This document shows positions 199 through 39,975 of a stretch of DNA of 40,628 nt, in pieces. Each line of letters begins with the position of its first letter. The first letter of the stretch is position 1. The stretch is from positions 1 to 40,628 of the forward strand of contig CANQIK010000010.1 in assembly GCA_947624085.1 (NCBI GenBank), written 5' to 3'. The translations under genes were made by a program, and so were the position numbers. The stretch comes from an uncultured Bacilli bacterium (lineage in GTDB: Bacteria; Bacillota_I; Bacilli_A; RF39; UBA660). Under the pieces are notes generated by a model. It was not told the DNA's origin, ran no database searches, and saw nothing but the letters and a program-made list of their open reading frames with translations.

Positions 199-1650
199 CT
201 AGCTTACTTTAAACGGTTTAGAATCACTACCATCAATCTCATCGCCAGCCTTTATAGTTACACTAGATTTAAGATAAAAGACTGGCCGCACACCATACGG
301 GTCACGTACTGTGCCTGAGAAGTGTGCGTCCACATCCCCAAAGCAGTCGACATTGAAAGCACGACGCGATGAATTAGTTAAAATCGTCCATTCATCTACA
401 GCATTAAATAACCAGTTATTTTCGCGATTTTTATCAGTACTATACCTATTCCATAAATTCGATGTCCAATTTTCTTTACTACTTGCATAGCCATAGTCTG
501 AAGGGTACATTAATCCTATTTTAGCTGAAACTTGTGTCTCAGCGCCAGTTTCTTTATATCTTTCTTCATCATACATCTCTTGTGGTGTTTTTTTAGAATC
601 ATAACACCACCCTGCATTCCACTTTACTGTTTCTATTTTATTTGCCCAGTTTTCTAAGTTGTTTAAAAAGCTATTACTATTTGTATTTAATGCTTGATAT
701 AATGTACTTTTTTCCCACTCATTTTTTTTGTAATCGTCCCAAGAGAACCCATCTATTTTTTCATCGGCTTTTACCCTTTTTAAGATTTTATATTTAGAAT
801 AAAATGTTAATGTATCATCAGCATATTCCATTCCTAAATCATCACGAGTGACATATTCTGATTTGATTACCTTTATTCTATTTTCTTTTGTTCCATTAGG
901 TGGTAATTGTACAGGCACATACCCTATTATGCGGTATAAATTTTTATCAGGACATGTCGTTGATGTGCCATTATTATAGTTTTCACTGCCTGGACCAAAA
1001 CATATAAAATTATTTGGGTTATTTCCTGAATAACGACATCCACCATCTCCTGCATCTTCATATTCTCCATCACCATTGACATCTATTGTTTTATCATGTT
1101 TTATAACCCCTGGGCTTGAACATACATCCAATAGCTCTTCTTCTGGCTCCGGTTCTGGCTCTGGTTCAGGGTCTGGTAGAGTTGGATCTTTTTCATAGTC
1201 TTCCTGTCCTCCACAGTTTTCTGATGCTGTCTTGCCATCTTTCCCTAGCTCAGCTTCATATACCTCTTCGCCTACATTATTAAAGACATATGTTCCATTT
1301 GATAGCCAAAACTTATAGCTATAGCTTTCTGTTTCTTCATCATACTCGATTAATACGGATCCTGTGTATCCTTCTTTTTCGCCTTTATCAAAATAATTAT
1401 TATTATTCAAATAACTTAATGAGTAGCATTTTGAACTTGAGCCTTTTACTTTACCACTATCTTCTATTTCTTCCGTTTGATAGGCAAATTTAGCTGCCTC
1501 TATCATATGAAGCCCTTCTTCACCTAAGGCTCCTTTTCTTGCTCTTGTTATAAGTGGTCCTATAGAAGTAGTGGCAATTAATACTATTACCCCTAATATT
1601 ACGATAACTGCTATTAACTCTATTAAGGTAAATCCTTTCCGATTCTTCAT
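199..1650 (-). CDS. Type IV prepilin-like protein with hypervariable C-terminal domain
   Basis: The protein has 483 residues. It opens with a class III prepilin signal: a basic leader ending KG, then FTLIE (Glu at mature position 5) and a hydrophobic helix to about residue 33. A prepilin peptidase would cut after Gly6. Residues 34-155 are a pilin-like globular part, 160-172 a Pro-Glu repeat linker, and about 205-483 a C-terminal domain shared with the next two genes. This domain ends in the core GVRPVFYLKSSV, which recalls C-type-lectin/FGE-like target domains (inference). Residues ~423-457 are the variable patch, where the coding DNA turns GC-rich. It is the last of three tandem paralogues. 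No pilus ATPase, platform or peptidase gene is present, so assembly must use genes elsewhere. The pilin call is firm; ligand binding is a guess. Confidence 0.85.
   Translation of the reverse strand: MKNRKGFTLIELIAVIVILGVIVLIATTSIGPLITRARKGALGEEGLHMIEAAKFAYQTEEIEDSGKVKGSSSKCYSLSYLNNNNYFDKGEKEGYTGSVLIEYDEETESYSYKFWLSNGTYVFNNVGEEVYEAELGKDGKTASENCGGQEDYEKDPTLPDPEPEPEPEPEEELLDVCSSPGVIKHDKTIDVNGDGEYEDAGDGGCRYSGNNPNNFICFGPGSENYNNGTSTTCPDKNLYRIIGYVPVQLPPNGTKENRIKVIKSEYVTRDDLGMEYADDTLTFYSKYKILKRVKADEKIDGFSWDDYKKNEWEKSTLYQALNTNSNSFLNNLENWANKIETVKWNAGWCYDSKKTPQEMYDEERYKETGAETQVSAKIGLMYPSDYGYASSKENWTSNLWNRYSTDKNRENNWLFNAVDEWTILTNSSRRAFNVDCFGDVDAHFSGTVRDPYGVRPVFYLKSSVTIKAGDEIDGSDSKPFKVS
279..382 (-). other. 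Putative DGR-type variable region in the first pilin-like gene
   Basis: Between the constant EWTI and GVRPVFYL segments the codons differ from the two paralogues at almost every position except scattered constant residues (AF, V, G). By hand count 51 of 90 bases at 281-370 are G or C (57%), against roughly a third in the rest of the gene. Most variable codons end in C or T, as expected if they came from AAC/AAT template codons by adenine mutagenesis. No template repeat is visible in the window. Confidence 0.55.
1128..1176 (-). repeat. Pro-Glu codon repeat linker
   Basis: A hexanucleotide-like repeat encodes alternating Pro and Glu in the first pilin-like gene; the second gene has a longer version near 2730-2775. 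It probably forms a stiff spacer holding the C-terminal domain away from the pilin shaft. The different repeat number in the two genes suggests slippage. Confidence 0.75.
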
Positions 1651-1846
1651 ATGCCACCTCTATTATGATGATAGCATAATTACTTACATTTTTCTATTTT
1701 TTCAATATAAGCATTACAATATTATTGTCACATAATTAATAATCATTTTACTCTATATGGATGAGCATCGCTTCCGTCTATACTTTCATCACCACTTAGT
1801 GTTACACTAGATTTAAGGTAAAAGACCGGGCGCACACCAAACGCGT
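1619..1846. repeat. Copy 1 of a 228-bp perfect direct repeat
   Basis: Identical to 3214-3441 with an offset of 1595 bases. It covers the first ~32 bases of the pilin-like gene at 199-1650, the whole intergenic gap, and the last ~100 bases of the upstream pilin-like gene, stopping exactly where that gene's variable patch starts. Perfect identity across a non-coding gap indicates recent tandem duplication or gene conversion. Confidence 0.9.
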
Positions 1847-3245
1847 CGTCAACGCCGCCGTTGCCCACATACCCACTGCTGTAGACAAGGAACGCATAGT
1901 CGCGTTTGCTAAAATTGCGCGAAATGGTCCATTCATCTACAGCATTATATAACCAGTTATAATGAGGGTTTGGAGATTTATTACATAGATTAATTGGGGC
2001 ATTACTACAATAAGATAAACCATAATGATCTAATATGTTTGTCCATATATGTTTACTAATTGCAAAGCCATAATCAGAGAGATACATTAATCCAATTTTA
2101 GCTGAAACCTTTTTCCTAGCTCCATATGATTCATCTCTTTCTATTTCATATATTTCTTTAGGTTTTTCTAGAGGTCTATTATGATGACCTCCAACATTCC
2201 ATTGTACTTCTTCTATTTTATCTGCCCAGTTACTTAATTTATGTAAATAACCATTTGAAGGATTATTTAACGTCATATATAATGTGCTACTTTCCCAAGT
2301 ATTTCGTAGATAAATTTTATTATTATCACTCCAATGAAACTCCTCAATATTTGCCGAATTTTTTACTCTTATTAAGCCTTTGTAATTTTTATTAAAATTT
2401 CCAATTCCATCTGCGTCTTCTTTTTCTAGCTCCTGATGGGTTATATACTCTGATTTTATAACTTTCACTCTTAATTCAGTTTGACCATTTGATAATTCCA
2501 CTGGGACATACCCTATTATGCGATACAAGTTTTTATCAGGACATGTCGTTGATGTGCCATTGTTATAGTTTTCACTACCCGGGCCAAAACATATAAAATT
2601 ATTAGGGTTATTACCTAAATACCGACATCCGCCATCGCCTGCATCGTCATATTCTCCGTCACCATCTACATATATTTTTCCATTATGCTTTATGACATCC
2701 GGACTTGAACATACATCTAATGGCTTTTCTTCAGGTTCAGGTTCAGGTTCAGGCTCAGGCTCTGGCTCGGGATATGTATAACTTGGTAACTTCTTACTTA
2801 AGCCTTCACAATCTTCAATCGCTTCTTTTCCTTCCGTTGCTAACTCTGAATCATAATCCTTTTCATTAACATTATTAAAGACATATGTTCCATTTGATAG
2901 CCAAAACTTATAGCTATAGTTTTTAGTCTCTTCATCATATTCTATTAATACGGATCCGGTATATCCTTCATCTTTCCCTTTATCATAATAATCATTTTCA
3001 TTTAGCCATTTTAATGAGTAACATATTGATTTTGATCCTTTTATATTATTTGCTTCATCTATTTCATCTAACTTATGAGCATATTTAGCTGCTTCTATCA
3101 TATGAAGTCCTTCTTCACCTAGGGCTCCTTTTCTTGCTCTTGTTATAAGTGGTCCTATAGAAGTAGTGGCAATTAGTACTATTACCTCTAATATTACGAT
3201 AACTGCTATTAATTCTATTAAGGTAAATCCTTTCCGATTCTTCAT
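1743..3245 (-). CDS. Type IV prepilin-like protein with hypervariable C-terminal domain (paralogue 2)
   Basis: The protein has 500 residues and the same plan as the gene at 199-1650: leader cleaved after Gly6, FTLIE start of the mature helix, pilin-like region, a longer Pro-Glu linker (about 158-175), then the shared domain with FICFGPGSENYNNG, IIGYVPV and KIGLMYLSDYGFA landmarks. The N-terminal ~50 residues are almost identical to the neighbour (one Gly to Glu change in the helix). The central part diverges. Residues ~441-474 are the GC-rich variable patch. The gap to the next gene is 92 bases and is duplicated upstream of this gene as well. It is probably co-transcribed from the promoter at 4697-4725. 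The family assignment of the C-terminal domain is by pattern only. Confidence 0.85.
   Translation of the reverse strand: MKNRKGFTLIELIAVIVILEVIVLIATTSIGPLITRARKGALGEEGLHMIEAAKYAHKLDEIDEANNIKGSKSICYSLKWLNENDYYDKGKDEGYTGSVLIEYDEETKNYSYKFWLSNGTYVFNNVNEKDYDSELATEGKEAIEDCEGLSKKLPSYTYPEPEPEPEPEPEPEEKPLDVCSSPDVIKHNGKIYVDGDGEYDDAGDGGCRYLGNNPNNFICFGPGSENYNNGTSTTCPDKNLYRIIGYVPVELSNGQTELRVKVIKSEYITHQELEKEDADGIGNFNKNYKGLIRVKNSANIEEFHWSDNNKIYLRNTWESSTLYMTLNNPSNGYLHKLSNWADKIEEVQWNVGGHHNRPLEKPKEIYEIERDESYGARKKVSAKIGLMYLSDYGFAISKHIWTNILDHYGLSYCSNAPINLCNKSPNPHYNWLYNAVDEWTISRNFSKRDYAFLVYSSGYVGNGGVDDAFGVRPVFYLKSSVTLSGDESIDGSDAHPYRVK
1823..1923 (-). other. Putative DGR-type variable region in the second pilin-like gene
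   Basis: By hand count 57 of 98 bases at 1823-1920 are G or C (58%) in a gene otherwise near one third GC. Across the patch from the constant Phe to the GVRP core, the changing codons are nearly all NNC or NNT, while Phe, Val and Gly codons between them stay constant. This is the expected result of adenine-specific mutagenesis of AAY codons in a template. The flanking DNA on the GVRPVFYL side is identical to the third gene. Confidence 0.6.
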
Positions 3246-3441
3246 ATGCCACCTCTATTATGATGATAGCATAATTACTTACATTTTTCTATTTTTTCAA
3301 TATAAGCATTACAATATTATTGTCACATAATTAATAATCATTTTACTCTATATGGATGAGCATCGCTTCCGTCTATACTTTCATCACCACTTAGTGTTAC
3401 ACTAGATTTAAGGTAAAAGACCGGGCGCACACCAAACGCGT
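3214..3441. repeat. Copy 2 of a 228-bp perfect direct repeat
   Basis: Identical to 1619-1846. It contains the start of the second pilin-like gene, the intergenic gap and the constant 3' end of the third gene, ending at the edge of that gene's variable patch. Confidence 0.9.
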
Positions 3442-4627
3442 GGCCATAAATTTCGTTGTCCCAATGCATGTATCCTGTGTTGTTGACATAGAAAGCATAT
3501 CCTTGGTAATCTGTATAACGTAGAATTGTCCATTCCAAAACGCCATTAAACAACCAGTTATTTTCGCGGTTTTGATTTTTGCCATCATAATCACCATCAT
3601 CATAATAAATAAGTTCATCTACCCAACTTTTTGGCTCGCTTGCAAAGCCATAGTCAGAAGGATACATTAATCCTATTTTAGCTGACACCTTTGTTTTGGC
3701 ACCATATAAACTATTTTTTTCTTTGTCATACATTTCTCCTGCAGTTATATTAACCATATTATAGCCCTCAACATTCCACTTCACATTTTCTATTTTGCTT
3801 TCCCAGTTGCCCAAATTATATATAAAACTGTTTTCATTATTATTTAATGCTTGATATAAAGAACTATTTTTCCATATATTGCCAGATTGTTCATTCCAGT
3901 CAAAGCCATCTATATTTTCCGCTTTTTTTATTCTTAGTAAGCTTTCATAATCTTTTTTAAAATGTAGAGTTCCATCAGCCTTGTTTTTGCCTAAATCACT
4001 TGCTGTGGCATATTCTGATTTTATTACTTTTATTAATTTTGTTGACGCACCATTAGAAAGAGTCACTGGTACATACCCTATTATCCGATATAAGTTTTTA
4101 TCTGCACAAGTCTTAGATGTGCCATTATTATAGTCTTCACTGCCTGGACCAAAACATATAAAATTATTTGGGTCATCTCCTGAATATCTATAACCATGAT
4201 CATTTGCTCCATTTTCTAATTGTGAATTATGATAAAGTAATTCTCCTTCTCCACTTTTTCCTAATAATTTTTCAAAAAATTTTTCTTGCTCTAACATTTT
4301 ATCAAAATATAGTGTACAACTAATATTTGCATTAGTTTTTAATATTACCTCATTGTTACTTGGATCCCAGTCTATAAAATATTCAGGATCGCTATCTTCA
4401 TCACAACTACTTTCGCCAATATCTAAGACGTATTCTCCTGTAGACCACTCGGTTGAATTTTCTAGAACATAATCTCCGTTTTCATCTTCATAGTAATATG
4501 ATATACCACTTCCATTTATAGTAAAATTTGATGGTTTATTTTCCTTTTTATTTGTTAATAATATTGCCAAAATTACTACTAAAACTATTATCAATAATGC
4601 ACTTATTATTCCTATTTTCTTCTTCAT
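3338..4627 (-). CDS. Membrane-anchored paralogue of the pilin-like proteins, variable C-terminus
   Basis: The protein has 429 residues. It lacks a prepilin leader and instead has a basic start and one hydrophobic segment (about residues 5-25), so it should be anchored in the membrane with the rest outside. Residues ~35-115 form an unrecognised, acidic region; from ~140 the domain shared with the two pilin-like proteins begins (FICFGPGSEDYNNG, IIGYVPV, KIGLMYPSDYGFA, GVRPVFYLKSSV). Residues ~368-403 are the variable patch. It is the first gene of the minus-strand trio, 70 bases past its -10 element. Swapping the pilin N-terminus for a simple anchor suggests the C-terminal domain is the functional part and the N-terminus only decides how it is displayed (inference). 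Confidence 0.75.
   Translation of the reverse strand: MKKKIGIISALLIIVLVVILAILLTNKKENKPSNFTINGSGISYYYEDENGDYVLENSTEWSTGEYVLDIGESSCDEDSDPEYFIDWDPSNNEVILKTNANISCTLYFDKMLEQEKFFEKLLGKSGEGELLYHNSQLENGANDHGYRYSGDDPNNFICFGPGSEDYNNGTSKTCADKNLYRIIGYVPVTLSNGASTKLIKVIKSEYATASDLGKNKADGTLHFKKDYESLLRIKKAENIDGFDWNEQSGNIWKNSSLYQALNNNENSFIYNLGNWESKIENVKWNVEGYNMVNITAGEMYDKEKNSLYGAKTKVSAKIGLMYPSDYGFASEPKSWVDELIYYDDGDYDGKNQNRENNWLFNGVLEWTILRYTDYQGYAFYVNNTGYMHWDNEIYGHAFGVRPVFYLKSSVTLSGDESIDGSDAHPYRVK
3418..3524 (-). other. Putative DGR-type variable region in the third paralogue
   Basis: This is the same position as in the other two genes, between constant EWTI and GVRPVFYL. By hand count 49 of 110 bases at 3421-3530 are G or C (45%), lower than the other two copies but above the surrounding gene. 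Eleven of fourteen compared variable codons end in C or T. It has two more codons than the second gene's patch, so the copies differ in length as well as in sequence. Confidence 0.5.
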
Positions 4628-21551: not shown

Positions 21552-21628
21552 GGGCGATTAGCTCAGTTGGTTAGAGCACCTGCCTTACAAGCAGGGGGTC
21601 ATAGGTTCGAGTCCTATATCGCCCACCA
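21552..21628 (+). tRNA. tRNA-Val (anticodon TAC)
   Basis: A 77-base cloverleaf with acceptor GGGCGAT/ATCGCCC, D arm GCTCAGTTGGTTAGAGC, anticodon arm CCTGC-CTTACAA-GCAGG (TAC, valine), T loop GTTCGAGTC and encoded CCA. It is transcribed with the tRNA-Thr 11 bases downstream. Confidence 0.97.
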
Positions 21629-21639
21629 TTTTATTTTTT

Positions 21640-21715
21640 GCCGACATAGCGTAATTGGTAGCGCAACTGACTTGTAATCAGTAGGTTGGGGGTTCGATTC
21701 CCTCTGTCGGCACCA
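21640..21715 (+). tRNA. tRNA-Thr (anticodon TGT)
   Basis: A 76-base cloverleaf with acceptor GCCGACA/TGTCGGC, anticodon arm CTGA-CTTGTAA-TCAG (TGT, threonine), T loop GGTTCGATTCC and encoded CCA. Its 3' end is next to the accessory genes that follow, a usual integration spot. Confidence 0.97.
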
Positions 21716-21724
21716 GTATGATAA

Positions 21725-21764
21725 AAAACTCGGACTTTTTAAATTATTGATAAGTTCGAGTTTT
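21725..21764 (+). terminator. Terminator of the tRNA unit
   Basis: AAAACTCGGACTT (21725-21737) pairs, with one G-U, with AAGTTCGAGTTTT (21752-21764), a 13-bp stem ending in U residues. Confidence 0.85.
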
Positions 21765-21813
21765 ATTATTCAACAAGTTATGATAAAATGATTTTAGTAA
21801 TTAAGGGGGCACT

Positions 21814-22554
21814 ATGAATAAAGAAATAATAAAATCAGAAATTAATGTGAATAATAATAGAATTAATGTTATACGAATAGGAAATAAAGAATATATCTCT
21901 CTTACAGATTTGGCTAGATATGCTGATGAAGATGATCCAAGATACCCTATTCAAACTTGGATGAGAAATAGAGATGTTATTGCTTATTTAGGATTGTGGG
22001 AAAAATTAAATAATGAAAACTTCAAAGGTGTCGAATTCGACACGTTTAAAAATGAAGCTGGTAGTAATAAATTTAAAATATCACCACAAAAATGGATTAA
22101 CGAAACCAATGCAATCGGAATAATATCTAAATCCGGCAATAATGGTGGAACGTATGCTTGTAGTGATATAGCTTTAGAATTTGCAAGTTGGTTATCCCCA
22201 GAATTTAAATTGTATGTTATCCAAGAATTTGAAAGATTAAAAAAGAATGAAGCATATCAATATAAAGTTGATTGGACAGCTAGTAGAATGCTTGCTAAAT
22301 CTAATTACCATATTCATACCAATTCAATAAAAGAAAATATTATTCCTAAATTAACTGAAAAACCAAAACAATATGTGTACGCTGAAGAAGCTGATGTTTT
22401 AAATGTTGCTTTATTTGGGATGACTGCAAAAGAATGGCGAGATAAAAATCCTGATATAGATGGAAATATCCGAGATTATACCGATTTAAAACATTTACTT
22501 ATTTTATGTAATTTAGAAAACATATTTGTAAATGGGCAGAAAGCCATTAGCTAA
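21814..22554 (+). CDS. KilA-N domain protein
   Basis: The protein has 246 residues. The first ~150 residues match the KilA-N pattern: EYISLTDLARYADEDDP, IQTWMRNRDVIAYLGLWEKL, WINETNAIGIISKSGNNGGTYA, and DIALEFASWLSPEFKLYVIQEFERLK. The C-terminal part (KPKQYVYAEEADVLNVALFGMTAKEWR, then DYTDLKHLLILCNLENIFVNGQ) is seen with KilA-N in phage and chromosomal proteins. KilA-N proteins are DNA-binding and linked to phages and mobile elements; a molecular role here is unknown. A strong GGGGG ribosome site lies before the ATG. It directly follows the tRNA-Thr terminator and is 15 bases from the next gene, so they form a two-gene unit, probably acquired. Confidence 0.88.
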   Translation: MNKEIIKSEINVNNNRINVIRIGNKEYISLTDLARYADEDDPRYPIQTWMRNRDVIAYLGLWEKLNNENFKGVEFDTFKNEAGSNKFKISPQKWINETNAIGIISKSGNNGGTYACSDIALEFASWLSPEFKLYVIQEFERLKKNEAYQYKVDWTASRMLAKSNYHIHTNSIKENIIPKLTEKPKQYVYAEEADVLNVALFGMTAKEWRDKNPDIDGNIRDYTDLKHLLILCNLENIFVNGQKAIS

Positions 22555-34270: not shown

Positions 34271-35671
34271 ATGAATCTAGATGAATATCAAAAATCGATT
34301 GTTACTTCGCAAAGTGATTTATTAGTAATCGCAGGACCCGGCAGTGGCAAAACGACGACCATAATGCATAAAGTAAATTATATTTACGAGCATAATCCCC
34401 AAAGTAGAATATTACTTATATCATTTACTAATAAAAGTGTTGATGATTTAAAAAAGAAAATTACAGTGCCAAGTCAAATAACTACTTTTCATAAATTAGC
34501 GATGGACATTTTAGAATATAATCATATAACTTATAGTTTAGCTTCTCCCAATTTATTAGATTATTTAATCAAGGAATATCTTAAAACCTTGGACAAAAAA
34601 GCCCAAGAAAAATTATGTTTATATTTACATATCCCTACTATTAAAGATGATAATCCACAATTTGTATCATTATGTAATCTCATAAAAACATTTATTAATC
34701 TATTTAAAACAAATAATCATGATTATACCACTATTGAAAAGATTGCTAATGATTATAAAGACAAATATCTTTTAACTATTATTTTTAAAATCTTATTTTT
34801 ATATGAAGAAGAAAAGAAAAGTCAAAATACTTTGGACTTTGATGATTTGATAATTAAAGCCAATGAAGTAATTAATAAAACCCATAAGTATAAAGGTTTT
34901 GATTATATTATTGTTGATGAATTTCAAGATACTTCCCAAATCAGGCTTAATTTAATTATGAGTATTTATAAGTTGAATAATGCTACAATTACAGCTGTTG
35001 GCGATGATGCTCAGTCTATTTTCCACTTTTCAGGTTGTGATTTAAATATTTTTTTAAACTTTCAAAAATATTTTCCGAAAGCTCAAGTTTTATTTTTAAA
35101 AAATACTTATCGAAATAGTATGAGTTTAGTTAAAATATCCGAAGACTTCATTAATAAAAACCCTACGCAAATTGTTAAGAATATGCAAAGCATGATTCAG
35201 CAAAAAGAACCAATAAAACTCAAGTATTTCTATAATCCTAAAAAAGCTTTAGTTAAAGTTCTGGAAAAAATAATTCCTAAAAGTACGGATATAATGATTT
35301 TGGCACGCAATAAAAAAGATATTTATAAATATCTATCCGCTCAAATAACCTTTAATAACAATATAGTCTATTATAAAGAATATAGTTTTCCTTTTTTAAC
35401 TATCCATTCTTCCAAAGGTTTAGAGGCTGAATATGTTATTGTTTTAAATGTTGAAGATAGTATAATGGGGATACCTAATAAAATTGAAGACCATCCAATA
35501 TTGAACTATTTGAATATGGAAATAGATAAATATCCCTATGCAGAAGAAAGAAGAGTCTTTTTTGTAGGAATTACAAGATGTAAAAAAGAAACCTATTTAC
35601 TGATTCCTCATAGCAATCCCTCTATGTTTGTTAAGGAAATAAAAAAGAGCTATAAAGCTCTTAAAAATTAA
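34271..35671 (+). CDS. UvrD/Rep-family DNA helicase (short form)
   Basis: The protein has 466 residues, against more than 700 for PcrA/UvrD. All main superfamily 1 motifs are visible: Q motif LDEYQKSIV, Walker A AGPGSGKTTT, Ia LISFTNKSV, II YIIVDEFQDTSQ, III VGDDAQSIFHFSG, IV NTYRNS, V TIHSSKGLEAEYVIVLN, and VI EERRVFFVGITRCKK. The 1B and 2B subdomains are strongly reduced. It may act in repair or at stalled forks; the pathway is not clear. I chose the ATG at 34271 because the promoter lies upstream of it within the open frame (ATG at 34250 would be almost leaderless). It is convergent with dut, overlapping by 4 bases. Confidence 0.88.
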   Translation: MNLDEYQKSIVTSQSDLLVIAGPGSGKTTTIMHKVNYIYEHNPQSRILLISFTNKSVDDLKKKITVPSQITTFHKLAMDILEYNHITYSLASPNLLDYLIKEYLKTLDKKAQEKLCLYLHIPTIKDDNPQFVSLCNLIKTFINLFKTNNHDYTTIEKIANDYKDKYLLTIIFKILFLYEEEKKSQNTLDFDDLIIKANEVINKTHKYKGFDYIIVDEFQDTSQIRLNLIMSIYKLNNATITAVGDDAQSIFHFSGCDLNIFLNFQKYFPKAQVLFLKNTYRNSMSLVKISEDFINKNPTQIVKNMQSMIQQKEPIKLKYFYNPKKALVKVLEKIIPKSTDIMILARNKKDIYKYLSAQITFNNNIVYYKEYSFPFLTIHSSKGLEAEYVIVLNVEDSIMGIPNKIEDHPILNYLNMEIDKYPYAEERRVFFVGITRCKKETYLLIPHSNPSMFVKEIKKSYKALKN

Positions 35672-36123
35672 CTATCAGAAGATCCAAACCCACCAATTCT
35701 TTTTCCTTGGGCGTTATCATCATCGGTAATTAAGTATTTCATAAATATTGCTTGGCCAATACAATCACCTTTTTTGATGATAATATCTTCATTGCTAAAA
35801 TTCCAATATTGAAAGTAGAAATGGCCATCATTTGTTTCGTTTTCATAATAATCACTATCAATTATGCCAATGCTATTTGGCATTACTAATCCTTTTTTAG
35901 GCCCACTGCTACGATTAGCAAGCATATACCATTCATCAGGCATACAATACGCCTTAAGTCCAGTAGGGATTAATGTCGGTTTCATGTCTTGAACATATTT
36001 AGGAATTACAACATCCTCGGCAGCTTTGATATCATATCCTGCTGAATGTTTAGTTGCCCGTTTAGGAAGTTCAATCCCCTTATCTTCCCAACCTTTAGCT
36101 ATTTTAAAACCACGACATGCCAT
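35668..36123 (-). CDS. dut: dUTP diphosphatase
   Basis: The protein has 151 residues, trimeric dUTPase type. Motif 1 is SAGYDIKA, motif 2 RSSGPKKGL, motif 3 GIIDSDYYEN (nucleophile-holding Asp and uracil-binding hairpin), and motif 5 RIGGFGSS at the C-terminus, the mobile phenylalanine arm. It keeps uracil out of DNA and supplies dUMP. I chose the ATG at 36123 (GAGG six to seven bases upstream); an ATG at 36135 overlaps the ribosome site. It overlaps the 3' end of nrdG by 20 bases and so is the last gene of a deoxynucleotide operon. Confidence 0.92.
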   Translation of the reverse strand: MACRGFKIAKGWEDKGIELPKRATKHSAGYDIKAAEDVVIPKYVQDMKPTLIPTGLKAYCMPDEWYMLANRSSGPKKGLVMPNSIGIIDSDYYENETNDGHFYFQYWNFSNEDIIIKKGDCIGQAIFMKYLITDDDNAQGKRIGGFGSSDS

Positions 36124-36619
36124 TTTTATCCTCATATAAGACTAGCTTCTTGGCTTCATTTGATTTTTTAACATCAATGACCCGTTGATTTCTAGAGCCA
36201 CAATATTTTAATTTTAAATCTTTTTCTTTTTCTACAAAACGACCATCTACAATAACATCAGCATATTTTAAAATCTCTTTATCTGTTAAATCTTTATCAT
36301 ATAAATAACCGGTCCAAATCCAAACAGTTTTTTCGGGATAATGAGCTTTAAATATTTTTGCTAATTTTGTTGTTCCTTCAATATTTTTAGGATGAAGAGG
36401 TTCTCCTCCTAAAATGGATAACCCCGCAATTCTAGATGATGAAGCTAAATCAATAATTTCCTCGATAGTATCATCAGTAAATTCTTGGCCTTTACTAAAA
36501 TCATGCGTTTCAGGATTAAAACAATTTTTACAATTGAATTCACAACCTTGCATGAAAATTGAAACTCTAAGTCCCGGACCATTAGAGATATCTAGGCGTC
36601 TAATTTTGTTATATCTCAT
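36104..36619 (-). CDS. nrdG: Anaerobic ribonucleotide reductase activating enzyme
   Basis: The protein has 171 residues, a radical SAM enzyme. The cluster motif is MQGCEFNCKNCF (C-x3-C-x2-C), with SNGPGLR before it and LGGEPLHP after. It makes the glycyl radical on NrdD under anoxic conditions. It starts two bases after the nrdD stop, so the pair is translated together. Confidence 0.96.
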   Translation of the reverse strand: MRYNKIRRLDISNGPGLRVSIFMQGCEFNCKNCFNPETHDFSKGQEFTDDTIEEIIDLASSSRIAGLSILGGEPLHPKNIEGTTKLAKIFKAHYPEKTVWIWTGYLYDKDLTDKEILKYADVIVDGRFVEKEKDLKLKYCGSRNQRVIDVKKSNEAKKLVLYEDKNGMSWF

Positions 36620-36621
36620 AA

Positions 36622-38781
36622 CTACTCTCCTAGGTCTTTATTATCTATATGAACATAACGTTCTTTTATCTCTTGAGTTCTTCCTTTATTCCAGAATCTA
36701 GTACCTATATATCCACAAGTTCTTCTGGCAACATTTAAAGTATTATGATCTCTATTACCACAGTTAGGACAATACCATTCCATATTATCATCAATTAATA
36801 TTTCGCCATCAAAGCCACATTTTTGACAATAATCACTCTTAGTATTTAGTTCCGCATACATAATGTTATCATATATAAACTTAACAACCTCTAAAACAGC
36901 AGGAATATTACTTGTTAAATTAGCGGTTTCAATATAAGAAATTGCTCCTCCTGGTGAAAGCTTTTGGAATTCACTTTCTAATTTTAATTTTTCAAATGGA
37001 TCAATTGCTTCAAAAACAGGAACATGATAAGAATTAGTTATATAATCACGATCTGTTATACCTTTAACAACGCCAAATCTTTCTCTTAAGCATTTAGCAA
37101 ATTTATAAGTTGTTGATTCAATTGGGGTTCCATATACACTGTAATCTATTTTTTCAGCTTCTTTCCATTCTTTACATTTATCATTTAATCTTTGCATTAC
37201 TTGAAGAGCAAATTCTTTACCCTCAGGATCAGTATGAGATTTGCCTGTCATAGCTTTAACACATTCATAAAGTCCAGCATATCCTAGTGATAAAGTTGAA
37301 TAACCATTATGAAGTAGATCATGAATGCTTTCGCCCTTTGGAAGTCTTGCTAATGCTCCATGTTGCCATAAGATTGGTGCAACATCAGAAGTAGCTTTGC
37401 TTAATCTTTTATGTCTAATTTGTAAAGCACGATGACAAAGTTCAAGTCTTTCATCAAGTATTTTCCAAAAAGCATCAAAATCTTTATCAGCTGTTAACCC
37501 AACATCAGGTAAATTAATAGTTACAACTCCTTGATTAAATCTACCATAATATTTAGGCTCATTAGTATCAGGATCAACATAAGGTGTTAAGAATGAACGA
37601 CATCCCATACATGGATAGCAATGTCCTTCACCATTTTTATCAATTTTAGATTGTTTCATTATTTTTTCAGAAATATAATCTGGCACTAATCTTTTAGCCG
37701 TACACTTAGCAGCAAGTTCAGTTAAATACCAATATTTACTATCTTCATGGATGTTATCTTCTTCAAGAACATATAGAAGTTTAGGGAAAGCAGGAGTTAT
37801 AAATACTCCTTTTTCATTTTTCATACCTTCAATTCTTTGCTTTAGGAATTCTTCAATTATCATAGCAAGCTCTTCTTTATATTCTTCTGTTTCACCTAAA
37901 TACATACATACACTTAAGAAAGGAGCTTGACCATTAGTCGTTGTCATTGAATTAACTTGATATTGGAATGTTTGAACACCATCAGTTATTTCTTTGGCTA
38001 AATCTTCTTTGGCAAATTGTTCAACTTGAGCCTTAGTTAATTTTCTTTCTTTATATTTTTCAACATATTTATTATAACTATCTCTAACAAAAGGCGCTAA
38101 ATGCGTAAGGGAAATAGTAACCCCTCCATATTGACTTGAAGATACAGCCGTAATAATTTGGGTAGCAATGGTAACTGCCGTTAAGAAACGATGTGGTTTT
38201 TCAATCATTACTCCATTTATGTTGGTACCATTTTGGAGCATATCCTCAAGATTTACTAAACAACAATTATGTAAAGCATTTTGCGCAAAGTAATCAGCAT
38301 CATGGAAATGGATAATTCCTTCATCATGAGCTTTTACGATATCATCAGTAAGTAGAAATCTACGGGTAATATCTGTTGAGGTAATACCTGCTAAATAATC
38401 TCTTTGGGTTGTAACAATTTTAGCATTCTTATTAGAATTTTCATTATTCCAATATTCACTTTCACCATCAATTAATTCTTTAATTGCTAAGTCCGTAGTA
38501 TTACTTTTTCTTACCAATTCTCTTGTATAACGATATGTTATATATTTTTTAGCTAATGTGAATTTACCAATAGCCATTAATTTCATTTCAATAATGTCTT
38601 GGATATCCTCCACTAGCATTCTTTTTTTACCCAAACCTTCAATATACTTTATAATATTTTTGATTTGAGTTGCAGACGCTTTGTCTTCTTCTTCAACTTC
38701 ATTATTAGCCTTCATAATAGCTTGTTCAATCTTTTCAGGACAATAGTCTACCATGTGGCCATCTCGTTTAATTATTTTCAT
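36622..38781 (-). CDS. nrdD: Anaerobic ribonucleoside-triphosphate reductase
   Basis: The protein has 719 residues. The N-terminal ATP-cone (~1-90, RDGHMVDYCPEKIEQAIMKA) is the allosteric overall activity site. The central ten-stranded barrel carries NGQAPFLSV. The C-terminal zinc site (CQKCGF, CPNCGN) is followed by the glycyl radical loop RTCGYIGTRF. It reduces NTPs to dNTPs without oxygen. A 16-bp palindrome sits at -41.5 from the predicted start point, so activation by the divergent Crp/Fnr-type regulator is likely. No aerobic reductase is in the window. Confidence 0.97.
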   Translation of the reverse strand: MKIIKRDGHMVDYCPEKIEQAIMKANNEVEEEDKASATQIKNIIKYIEGLGKKRMLVEDIQDIIEMKLMAIGKFTLAKKYITYRYTRELVRKSNTTDLAIKELIDGESEYWNNENSNKNAKIVTTQRDYLAGITSTDITRRFLLTDDIVKAHDEGIIHFHDADYFAQNALHNCCLVNLEDMLQNGTNINGVMIEKPHRFLTAVTIATQIITAVSSSQYGGVTISLTHLAPFVRDSYNKYVEKYKERKLTKAQVEQFAKEDLAKEITDGVQTFQYQVNSMTTTNGQAPFLSVCMYLGETEEYKEELAMIIEEFLKQRIEGMKNEKGVFITPAFPKLLYVLEEDNIHEDSKYWYLTELAAKCTAKRLVPDYISEKIMKQSKIDKNGEGHCYPCMGCRSFLTPYVDPDTNEPKYYGRFNQGVVTINLPDVGLTADKDFDAFWKILDERLELCHRALQIRHKRLSKATSDVAPILWQHGALARLPKGESIHDLLHNGYSTLSLGYAGLYECVKAMTGKSHTDPEGKEFALQVMQRLNDKCKEWKEAEKIDYSVYGTPIESTTYKFAKCLRERFGVVKGITDRDYITNSYHVPVFEAIDPFEKLKLESEFQKLSPGGAISYIETANLTSNIPAVLEVVKFIYDNIMYAELNTKSDYCQKCGFDGEILIDDNMEWYCPNCGNRDHNTLNVARRTCGYIGTRFWNKGRTQEIKERYVHIDNKDLGE

Positions 38782-38818
38782 ACTTCTACCTCTCCTCTAT
38801 TCTCGAAATACTAAACCC

Positions 38819-38829
38819 ATTATAGCATT
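38819..38829 (-). promoter_or_regulatory. Extended -10 promoter of nrdD
   Basis: Minus-strand TGC-TATAAT ends at 38819, giving a predicted start near 38812. No good -35 is present, but the palindrome at 38846-38861 takes its place at -41.5, the class II activator position known for CRP and FNR. Confidence 0.7.
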
Positions 38830-38845
38830 TGCCAAAATAATTTAT

Positions 38846-38861
38846 TGTTGCATTTGCAACA
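38846..38861. promoter_or_regulatory. Palindromic site for the Crp/Fnr-type regulator
   Basis: TGTTGCA-TT-TGCAACA is a perfect inverted repeat of the size used by Crp/Fnr dimers, but it differs from the FNR (TTGAT-N4-ATCAA) and CRP (TGTGA-N6-TCACA) consensus. It overlaps the -35 of the regulator's own promoter and is placed for activation of nrdD. Confidence 0.7.
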
Positions 38862-38882
38862 TTTTGCATTTTTTGATAAAAT
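38854..38882 (+). promoter_or_regulatory. Promoter of the Crp/Fnr-type gene
   Basis: TTGCAA (38854-38859, inside the palindrome), a 17-base spacer and TAAAAT (38877-38882). Binding at the palindrome would block the -35, so autorepression is expected. Confidence 0.7.
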
Positions 38883-38900
38883 ATTTTTGAGAGGTGTAAA

Positions 38901-39573: not shown

Positions 39574-39975
39574 ATGGCTTTAATAAAATGTCCTGAATGC
39601 AGTAATAAAATAAGTGATAAAGCCAAAAAGTGTCCGCATTGTGGCTACATAATGGAAAGAAAATACTGTCCAAAGTGTGGCGAAGCTTTAGCTATAGATG
39701 CGAGGGCTTGTTCAAAATGTGCTTATAACTTTATGGAAGATGTTATGGCCCCGAGACCTAGCTATAAGTCCGAAAATTATGGTTTAGCAATTGCAGCACT
39801 TATCAGTTCACTTATTGCTCCAGTTATAAGTCTTGTACTCAGCATTGTTGTTTTGGTTATTAACAAAGAACAAGAAAAATCTATTAAAAGTCTATGCTTT
39901 GCAGCCATCACTTTAAGCGCTATTGAGATTTTCTTCCAAATAATTGGCATTATTTTTGCTTTGATTTTAAATTAA
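39574..39975 (+). CDS. Zinc-ribbon membrane protein
   Basis: The protein has 133 residues. Two zinc ribbons occupy ~1-50 (CPECSNKISDKAKKCPHCGY; YCPKCGEALAIDARACSKCAY), a short linker follows, and two hydrophobic segments at ~70-95 and ~105-132 cross the membrane. Such small proteins are common in Firmicutes and their role is unknown. GAGGTGA lies before the ATG, 34 bases after the Crp/Fnr-type gene, so they may share a transcript. Confidence 0.8.
   Translation: MALIKCPECSNKISDKAKKCPHCGYIMERKYCPKCGEALAIDARACSKCAYNFMEDVMAPRPSYKSENYGLAIAALISSLIAPVISLVLSIVVLVINKEQEKSIKSLCFAAITLSAIEIFFQIIGIIFALILN

Follow-up and report, generated by a model that had tools for sequence, protein, structure and literature searches.

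A conserved palindrome between nrdD and a divergent Crp/Fnr-family gene of uncultured gut Bacilli: the probable operator of a dedicated class II activator of anaerobic ribonucleotide reductase

How is deoxyribonucleotide synthesis controlled in bacteria that lack NrdR, a repressor of ribonucleotide reductase genes that is described as universal among bacteria (PMC12051234)? The question is raised by a 40,628-nucleotide stretch of DNA from an uncultured Bacilli bacterium (contig CANQIK010000010.1, referred to below as the window), in which nrdDG encodes the sole reductase detected in the genome. In the family to which this bacterium belongs, NrdR (TIGR00244) scores over its cut-off in just two of 291 genomes, and with so many genomes it is unlikely that incomplete metagenome assemblies are masking it. 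A class I or II reductase is found in one of 145 family genomes. The nrdD gene of the window is separated by a 119 bp intergenic region (38782-38900) from a divergently oriented gene for a Crp/Fnr-family regulator, P0001. The palindrome found in this gap is very likely the operator of that protein, which would act as a class II activator of nrdD, repress its own gene and be dedicated to DNA-precursor functions in a lineage without NrdR.

The palindrome, TGTTGCATTTGCAACA, has a probability of around 2.5e-7 of occurring exactly in the gap by chance. The 1.22-Mb genome contains a single exact copy, where composition predicts approximately 0.003, and the next six best matches in that genome, with one or two mismatches, are all within genes. 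The first-pass annotation had placed it exactly 41.5 bases upstream of the predicted nrdD start, described the extended -10 of nrdD as lacking a -35, and noted that the same site covers the -35 of the regulator gene; each of these observations is borne out by the positions in Table 1. The final base of the nrdD extended -10 lies 34.5 bases from the operator centre, which puts the site at -41.5 of the predicted start, and no -35 can be found at a spacing of 16-18 bp. On the other side, a 17 bp spacer separates TTGCAA, within the palindrome, from the regulator's extended -10. Both transcript starts are predictions derived from the -10 elements. By sequence geometry the nrdD promoter is of class II, with a dimer site near -41.5, a -10 and no functional -35 to be seen.

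Table 1. Genes, promoter elements and operator in and around the nrdD-regulator intergenic region of the window
Feature	Position	Strand	Details
dUTPase-family gene (dut)	35668..36135	-	PF00692
nrdG, NrdD activase	36104..36619	-	TIGR02491 over cut-off
nrdD, class III (anaerobic) ribonucleoside-triphosphate reductase with ATP cone	36622..38781	-	PRK09263 and TIGR02487 over cut-off
nrdD extended -10, TGcTATAAT	38819..38827	-	predicted +1 = 38812
Operator palindrome TGTTGCATTTGCAACA, 16 bp	38846..38861	.	centre 38853.5; 14-bp core GTTGC-N4-GCAAC
Regulator -35, TTGCAA	38854..38859	+	right half of palindrome
Regulator extended -10, TGaTAAAAT	38874..38882	+	predicted +1 = 38889
Crp/Fnr-family regulator P0001, 212 aa	38901..39539	+	recognition helix DRAAMSREF
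Zinc-ribbon membrane protein	39574..39975	+	begins 34 bp past regulator

The dUTPase-family gene, which overlaps the end of nrdG, is probably the final gene of the nrdD operon, and a dut homologue is present at 52 of 80 related named loci. The gene for a zinc-ribbon membrane protein, possibly co-transcribed with the regulator, is retained in close relatives only (present at L006, absent at L008). Elsewhere in the window, three neighbouring genes (199-4627) have prepilin-type or single-membrane N termini and near-identical C-terminal domains (GVRPVFYLKSSVT...), and appear to be a tandem family of surface proteins. A further gene (21552-22554), which from its fold we take to be KilA-N/Bro-like, comes directly after two tRNA genes identified by a tRNA scan, and could mark an old integration site.

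The regulator is detected in 117 of the 291 family genomes. A match of at least 12 of 14 bases to the operator is present at 111 of 112 orthologous regulator loci, a count that, in common with the other locus counts given here, is uncorrected for shared ancestry and drawn from mostly incomplete metagenome assemblies. At least 109 of the 112 loci read have nrdD divergent from the regulator. The regulator orthologues are between 24% and 91% identical to the window protein (median 36%), and the intergenic bases just beyond the operator have an information content near zero; this combination of diverged regulators and almost information-free flanks implies strong selection on the operator, the core of which is identical at all 14 bases in most loci. 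At L143 and L146 the operator is GTTGCATTTGCAAC. The spacing is similarly constrained, with the nrdD extended -10 scoring best at 34.5 or 35.5 bases from the operator centre in approximately 90 of 106 loci; a strict TGnTAnnnT occurs at these positions in 70 of the 106, against around 0.5 expected. The regulator's TTGCAA is inside the operator, with the 17 bp spacer, in 95 of the 106 loci, and its extended -10 ends 28.5 bases from the centre in 61. A further 80 loci, taken from named records by a contig search with an 11-sequence alignment and shared in part with the first set, represent uncultured Bacilli that include Candidatus Onthousia and Candidatus Aphodocola. In this set the operator matches at 13 or more of 14 bases in 79 loci (the exception being L306), the nrdD extended -10 is at 34.5 or 35.5 in 77, and the regulator's is at 28.5 in 72.

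This degree of constraint bears on whether the palindrome binds a protein at all. The plus strand scores as a terminator-like stem followed by T, and some copies elsewhere in these genomes are within longer hairpins (those at L197, L202 and L214 could be terminators), as would be expected of a transcription terminator or another hairpin with no bound protein. Such an explanation can practically be dismissed for the site as a whole, because the palindrome is upstream of both predicted divergent starts, and hence in neither transcript, and because it is fixed in sequence beyond what pairing requires, fixed in its distance to two -10 elements, and absent from the nrdD loci of genomes that have no regulator. 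The operator reading is preferred, and direct binding by the divergent protein is what we infer from it.

The unit of regulator, operator and nrdD also occurs beyond this family, in two more families belonging to the class (L315, L319, L322, L326, L327, L332), and the separate placement of family f19 at two points in the tree suggests transfer. Where nrdD is located apart from the regulator, in G284 (L185) and G223 (L213), the operator still precedes nrdD. At L138, L131, L133 and L139-L146, regulator and operator adjoin NrdD proteins mostly 25-30% identical to that of the window, which indicates a change in the type of reductase with retention of the regulator. The regulator and one type of NrdD do not appear to form a fixed cassette, as some regulators adjoin an NrdD 25-45% identical to that of the window.

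The direction of control can be approached through relatives without the regulator. In 38 of these the only NrdD homologues are approximately 30% identical, and the operator is found at none of 30 nrdD loci. A -35 with five or six of six matches precedes nrdD in 15 of 21 such loci, although these NrdDs are distant homologues and the comparison is therefore one across lineages rather than of a single promoter. The lack of a -35 where the operator is present, set against the mostly good -35 where the regulator is missing, argues for activation of nrdD, as does the confinement of the -10 to one of two adjacent positions, which is typical of class II activators. An NrdR-like role, in which the protein represses nrdD by binding beside the -10, seems very unlikely. 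Polymerase could be obstructed by a dimer centred at -41.5, and NrdR, which has seemingly been replaced here, is itself a repressor (PMC12051234); however, the distribution of -35 elements speaks against repression, and a -10 spacing fixed to one base, at unlinked targets as well, fits contact with polymerase better than occlusion. The class II geometry proposed in the first-pass annotation to link a cluster-less Crp/Fnr protein to nrdD is consequently supported both by the fixed spacing, at the 106 loci and at sites in trans, and by good nrdD -35 elements being restricted to relatives without the regulator.

In the favoured activation scheme, a regulator dimer bound at -41.5 would substitute for the missing -35 and recruit RNA polymerase to the nrdD extended -10, thereby driving nrdD-nrdG-dut, the sole de novo deoxyribonucleotide route detected. 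The same dimer would cover the regulator's own -35 and so cap the level of the protein. Autorepression is suggested by the location of that -35 inside the operator, and by an asymmetry in the operator itself: the central T that completes the regulator's TTGCAA is present in 97 of 106 loci on that side, compared with 54 of 106 on the other. Among the loci of regulator-less relatives (L148-L168), several nrdD promoters of the distant type carry a CGAAC-N4-GTTnG-like sequence over or just upstream of the -35, for example CGAACTTTTGTTTG in L153 and L157. These sequences resemble the Gram-positive LexA box, and a repressor of SOS type may take charge of nrdD in such relatives.

The genome search for palindrome-like sites proposed in the first-pass annotation was also run, and yields one strong site in the window's genome and further targets in relatives. 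The strict pattern GTTGCANNTGCAAC was counted in 111 regulator-bearing genomes; among the matches listed, it is present in at least 106, usually once or twice per genome, while a reversed-pattern control gives zero matches in all 111. Forty-five strict sites away from the regulator were read among the matches listed, 14 within ORFs and 31 outside. All but two of the latter precede nrdD (11), the pyruvate formate-lyase gene pfl (8), nrdG2 (3), ligA (3), thyA (2) or a gene for an OFA-type transporter (2). The nrdD cases include second or additional copies of the gene, the two thymidylate synthase targets are of two different types, and the OFA-type protein is an MFS transporter of monocarboxylate type that matches lactate and oxalate/formate models, both below cut-off. 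A strict extended -10 at 34.5 or 35.5 accompanies 24 of the 29 sites, against approximately 0.14 expected, and this recurrence of the same distance at unlinked targets again argues for activation. In genus g51 (L184, L186, L187), the gene for NAD-dependent DNA ligase is preceded by an nrdD-type operator at class II spacing, which ties a replication gene to the regulator in these three genomes.

In the window's own genome, the site between nrdD and the regulator is the sole strong one in the genome-wide pattern search, and no operator was found on inspection of pfl in this genome and its genus. The wider regulon therefore applies to relatives. In related genera, the regulator and operator would also drive nrdG2, extra nrdD copies, thymidylate synthase, DNA ligase, pfl and the monocarboxylate-type transporter. 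The theme these targets seem to share is the supply of DNA precursors: besides the reductase and its activase they cover dTMP synthesis, ligase, formate and, within the operon, dUTPase. E. coli-type NrdD uses formate as its reductant, and formate is also a source of one-carbon units; a plausible double role of this kind could explain the control of pfl and the transporter.

The regulator itself belongs to the Crp type. P0001 matches HTH_Crp_2 in Pfam, with cNMP_binding weak and below the Pfam cut-off; AlphaFold models a Crp fold with confidence (mean pLDDT 91). All NCBIfam models fall far short of their cut-offs (the CRP model reaches 26 of 266 bits). Invariant recognition-helix residues across 112 orthologues are D181, R182, S/A183, R187 and E188, with R182 (R180 in CRP numbering) present in 111. 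The best PDB sequence matches are Lmo0753 (7t8o), foremost, and TM1171 (1o5l). Lmo0753, from Listeria monocytogenes, has a similar recognition helix, DITRPSLSRE, though the similarity is remote and need not imply a shared target.

Class II promoter architecture is common to many FNR sites. With its Crp/Fnr fold, the regulator might be thought a global one that places nrdD under O2 or cAMP control, in the manner of FNR or CRP, and a Crp/Fnr-family activator at an nrdD promoter has precedent in E. coli Fnr and P. aeruginosa Dnr (PMC5645315). This is extremely unlikely. The first-pass annotation was correct that the FNR cysteines are missing: P0001 has a single Cys (C44), and no Cys column exceeds 32% in the 112 orthologues. 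It was equally correct that the motif departs from standard CRP and FNR sites, as the conserved site is GTTGC-N4-GCAAC, and neither the FNR operator TTGAT-N4-ATCAA nor the CRP site TGTGA-N6-TCACA is found. No cAMP-pocket arginine is conserved after the FG(E/S) motif in the orthologues. FNR, ANR and DNR are global regulators with TTGAT-type sites, whereas here a dedicated neighbouring gene encodes a protein with no Fe-S cluster, typically with one or two sites per genome and with DNA-precursor genes as its target set.

A closer comparison is with HcpR. Rodionov et al. connected bases of the operator with R180 and the residue at 181 (CRP numbering); HcpR2, which has R/P, reads GTAAC-N4-GTTAC (PMC1274295). 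In the regulator described here the pair is R with S/A and the site GTTGC-N4-GCAAC; both R180 and the HcpR2 geometry (Gxxxx-N4-xxxxC) are retained. The resemblance extends to the Crp fold, a small residue at 181, a 14-bp palindrome with an N4 centre, a small regulon, frequent divergence from the target and the lack of Fe-S cysteines (PMC1274295). This shared motif geometry implies that the regulator is a possible sister of HcpR rather than an orphan. That it is instead an HcpR orthologue, a heme/NO sensor activating nrdD in defence against nitrosative stress, appears unlikely, notwithstanding that its closest fold match is P. gingivalis HcpR, that TM1171 is among its best sequence matches, and that hcp- or ferredoxin-linked relatives with GTTGT-type palindromes exist in related Bacilli. 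The gene hcp (Prismane, PF03063) is found in none of 145 family genomes, and the regulator adjoins nrdD rather than hcp, has a GTTGC rather than a GTAAC half-site, and targets DNA-precursor genes. In an unrooted tree, 41 nrdD-linked proteins separate from 11 linked to hcp, ferredoxin or other genes with support of 100/99. Furthermore, the sensor domain of the orthologues has no conserved Met, His or Cys as a candidate heme ligand, although such ligands can vary. The regulator is thus best described as a putative HcpR relative re-aimed at nrdD, and not as an HcpR by function. The hcp- and ferredoxin-linked Crp/Fnr proteins at L321, L323 and relatives in other families have DRSALS helices and GTTGT-N4-ACAAC-like palindromes, and may be a form of HcpR with a motif unlike the GTAAC-N4-GTTAC on record.

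The regulator resembles NrdR in being small and having reductase genes as dedicated targets. NrdR (PMC12051234) differs in fold, in being a repressor and in its paired NrdR boxes and nucleotide-sensing ATP cone, and is essentially absent from the window's family; the NrdR combination of zinc ribbon and ATP cone is not found in the regulator. The first-pass annotation held that a signal other than that of FNR must control dNTP synthesis; such a signal may exist, though the protein may also be a constitutive activator. The Crp fold may bind a ligand related to nucleotides or growth, or the protein may be active without ligand, its activity set by autorepression; either seems likelier than sensing of O2 or NO. 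A search of the literature, mostly outside subscription journals, found no paper on the nrdD-linked regulator-operator system.

A bolder proposal, that a Crp-fold master activator sensing a nucleotide or a one-carbon/formate metabolite has replaced NrdR family-wide in gut Bacilli, is at present doubtful; if true, one activator would couple the reduction of ribonucleotides to dTMP synthesis, to the supply of formate and to DNA ligation. For this very large group of gut bacteria, in which NrdR is essentially absent, a single reductase with a dedicated activator would be in place, and one protein together with a single 16-bp site now makes it possible to test directly how DNA precursors are controlled in its absence. 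The system would also offer a clean natural case of an HcpR-like regulator re-aimed at new targets, in which a recognition-helix residue and an operator base have changed together.
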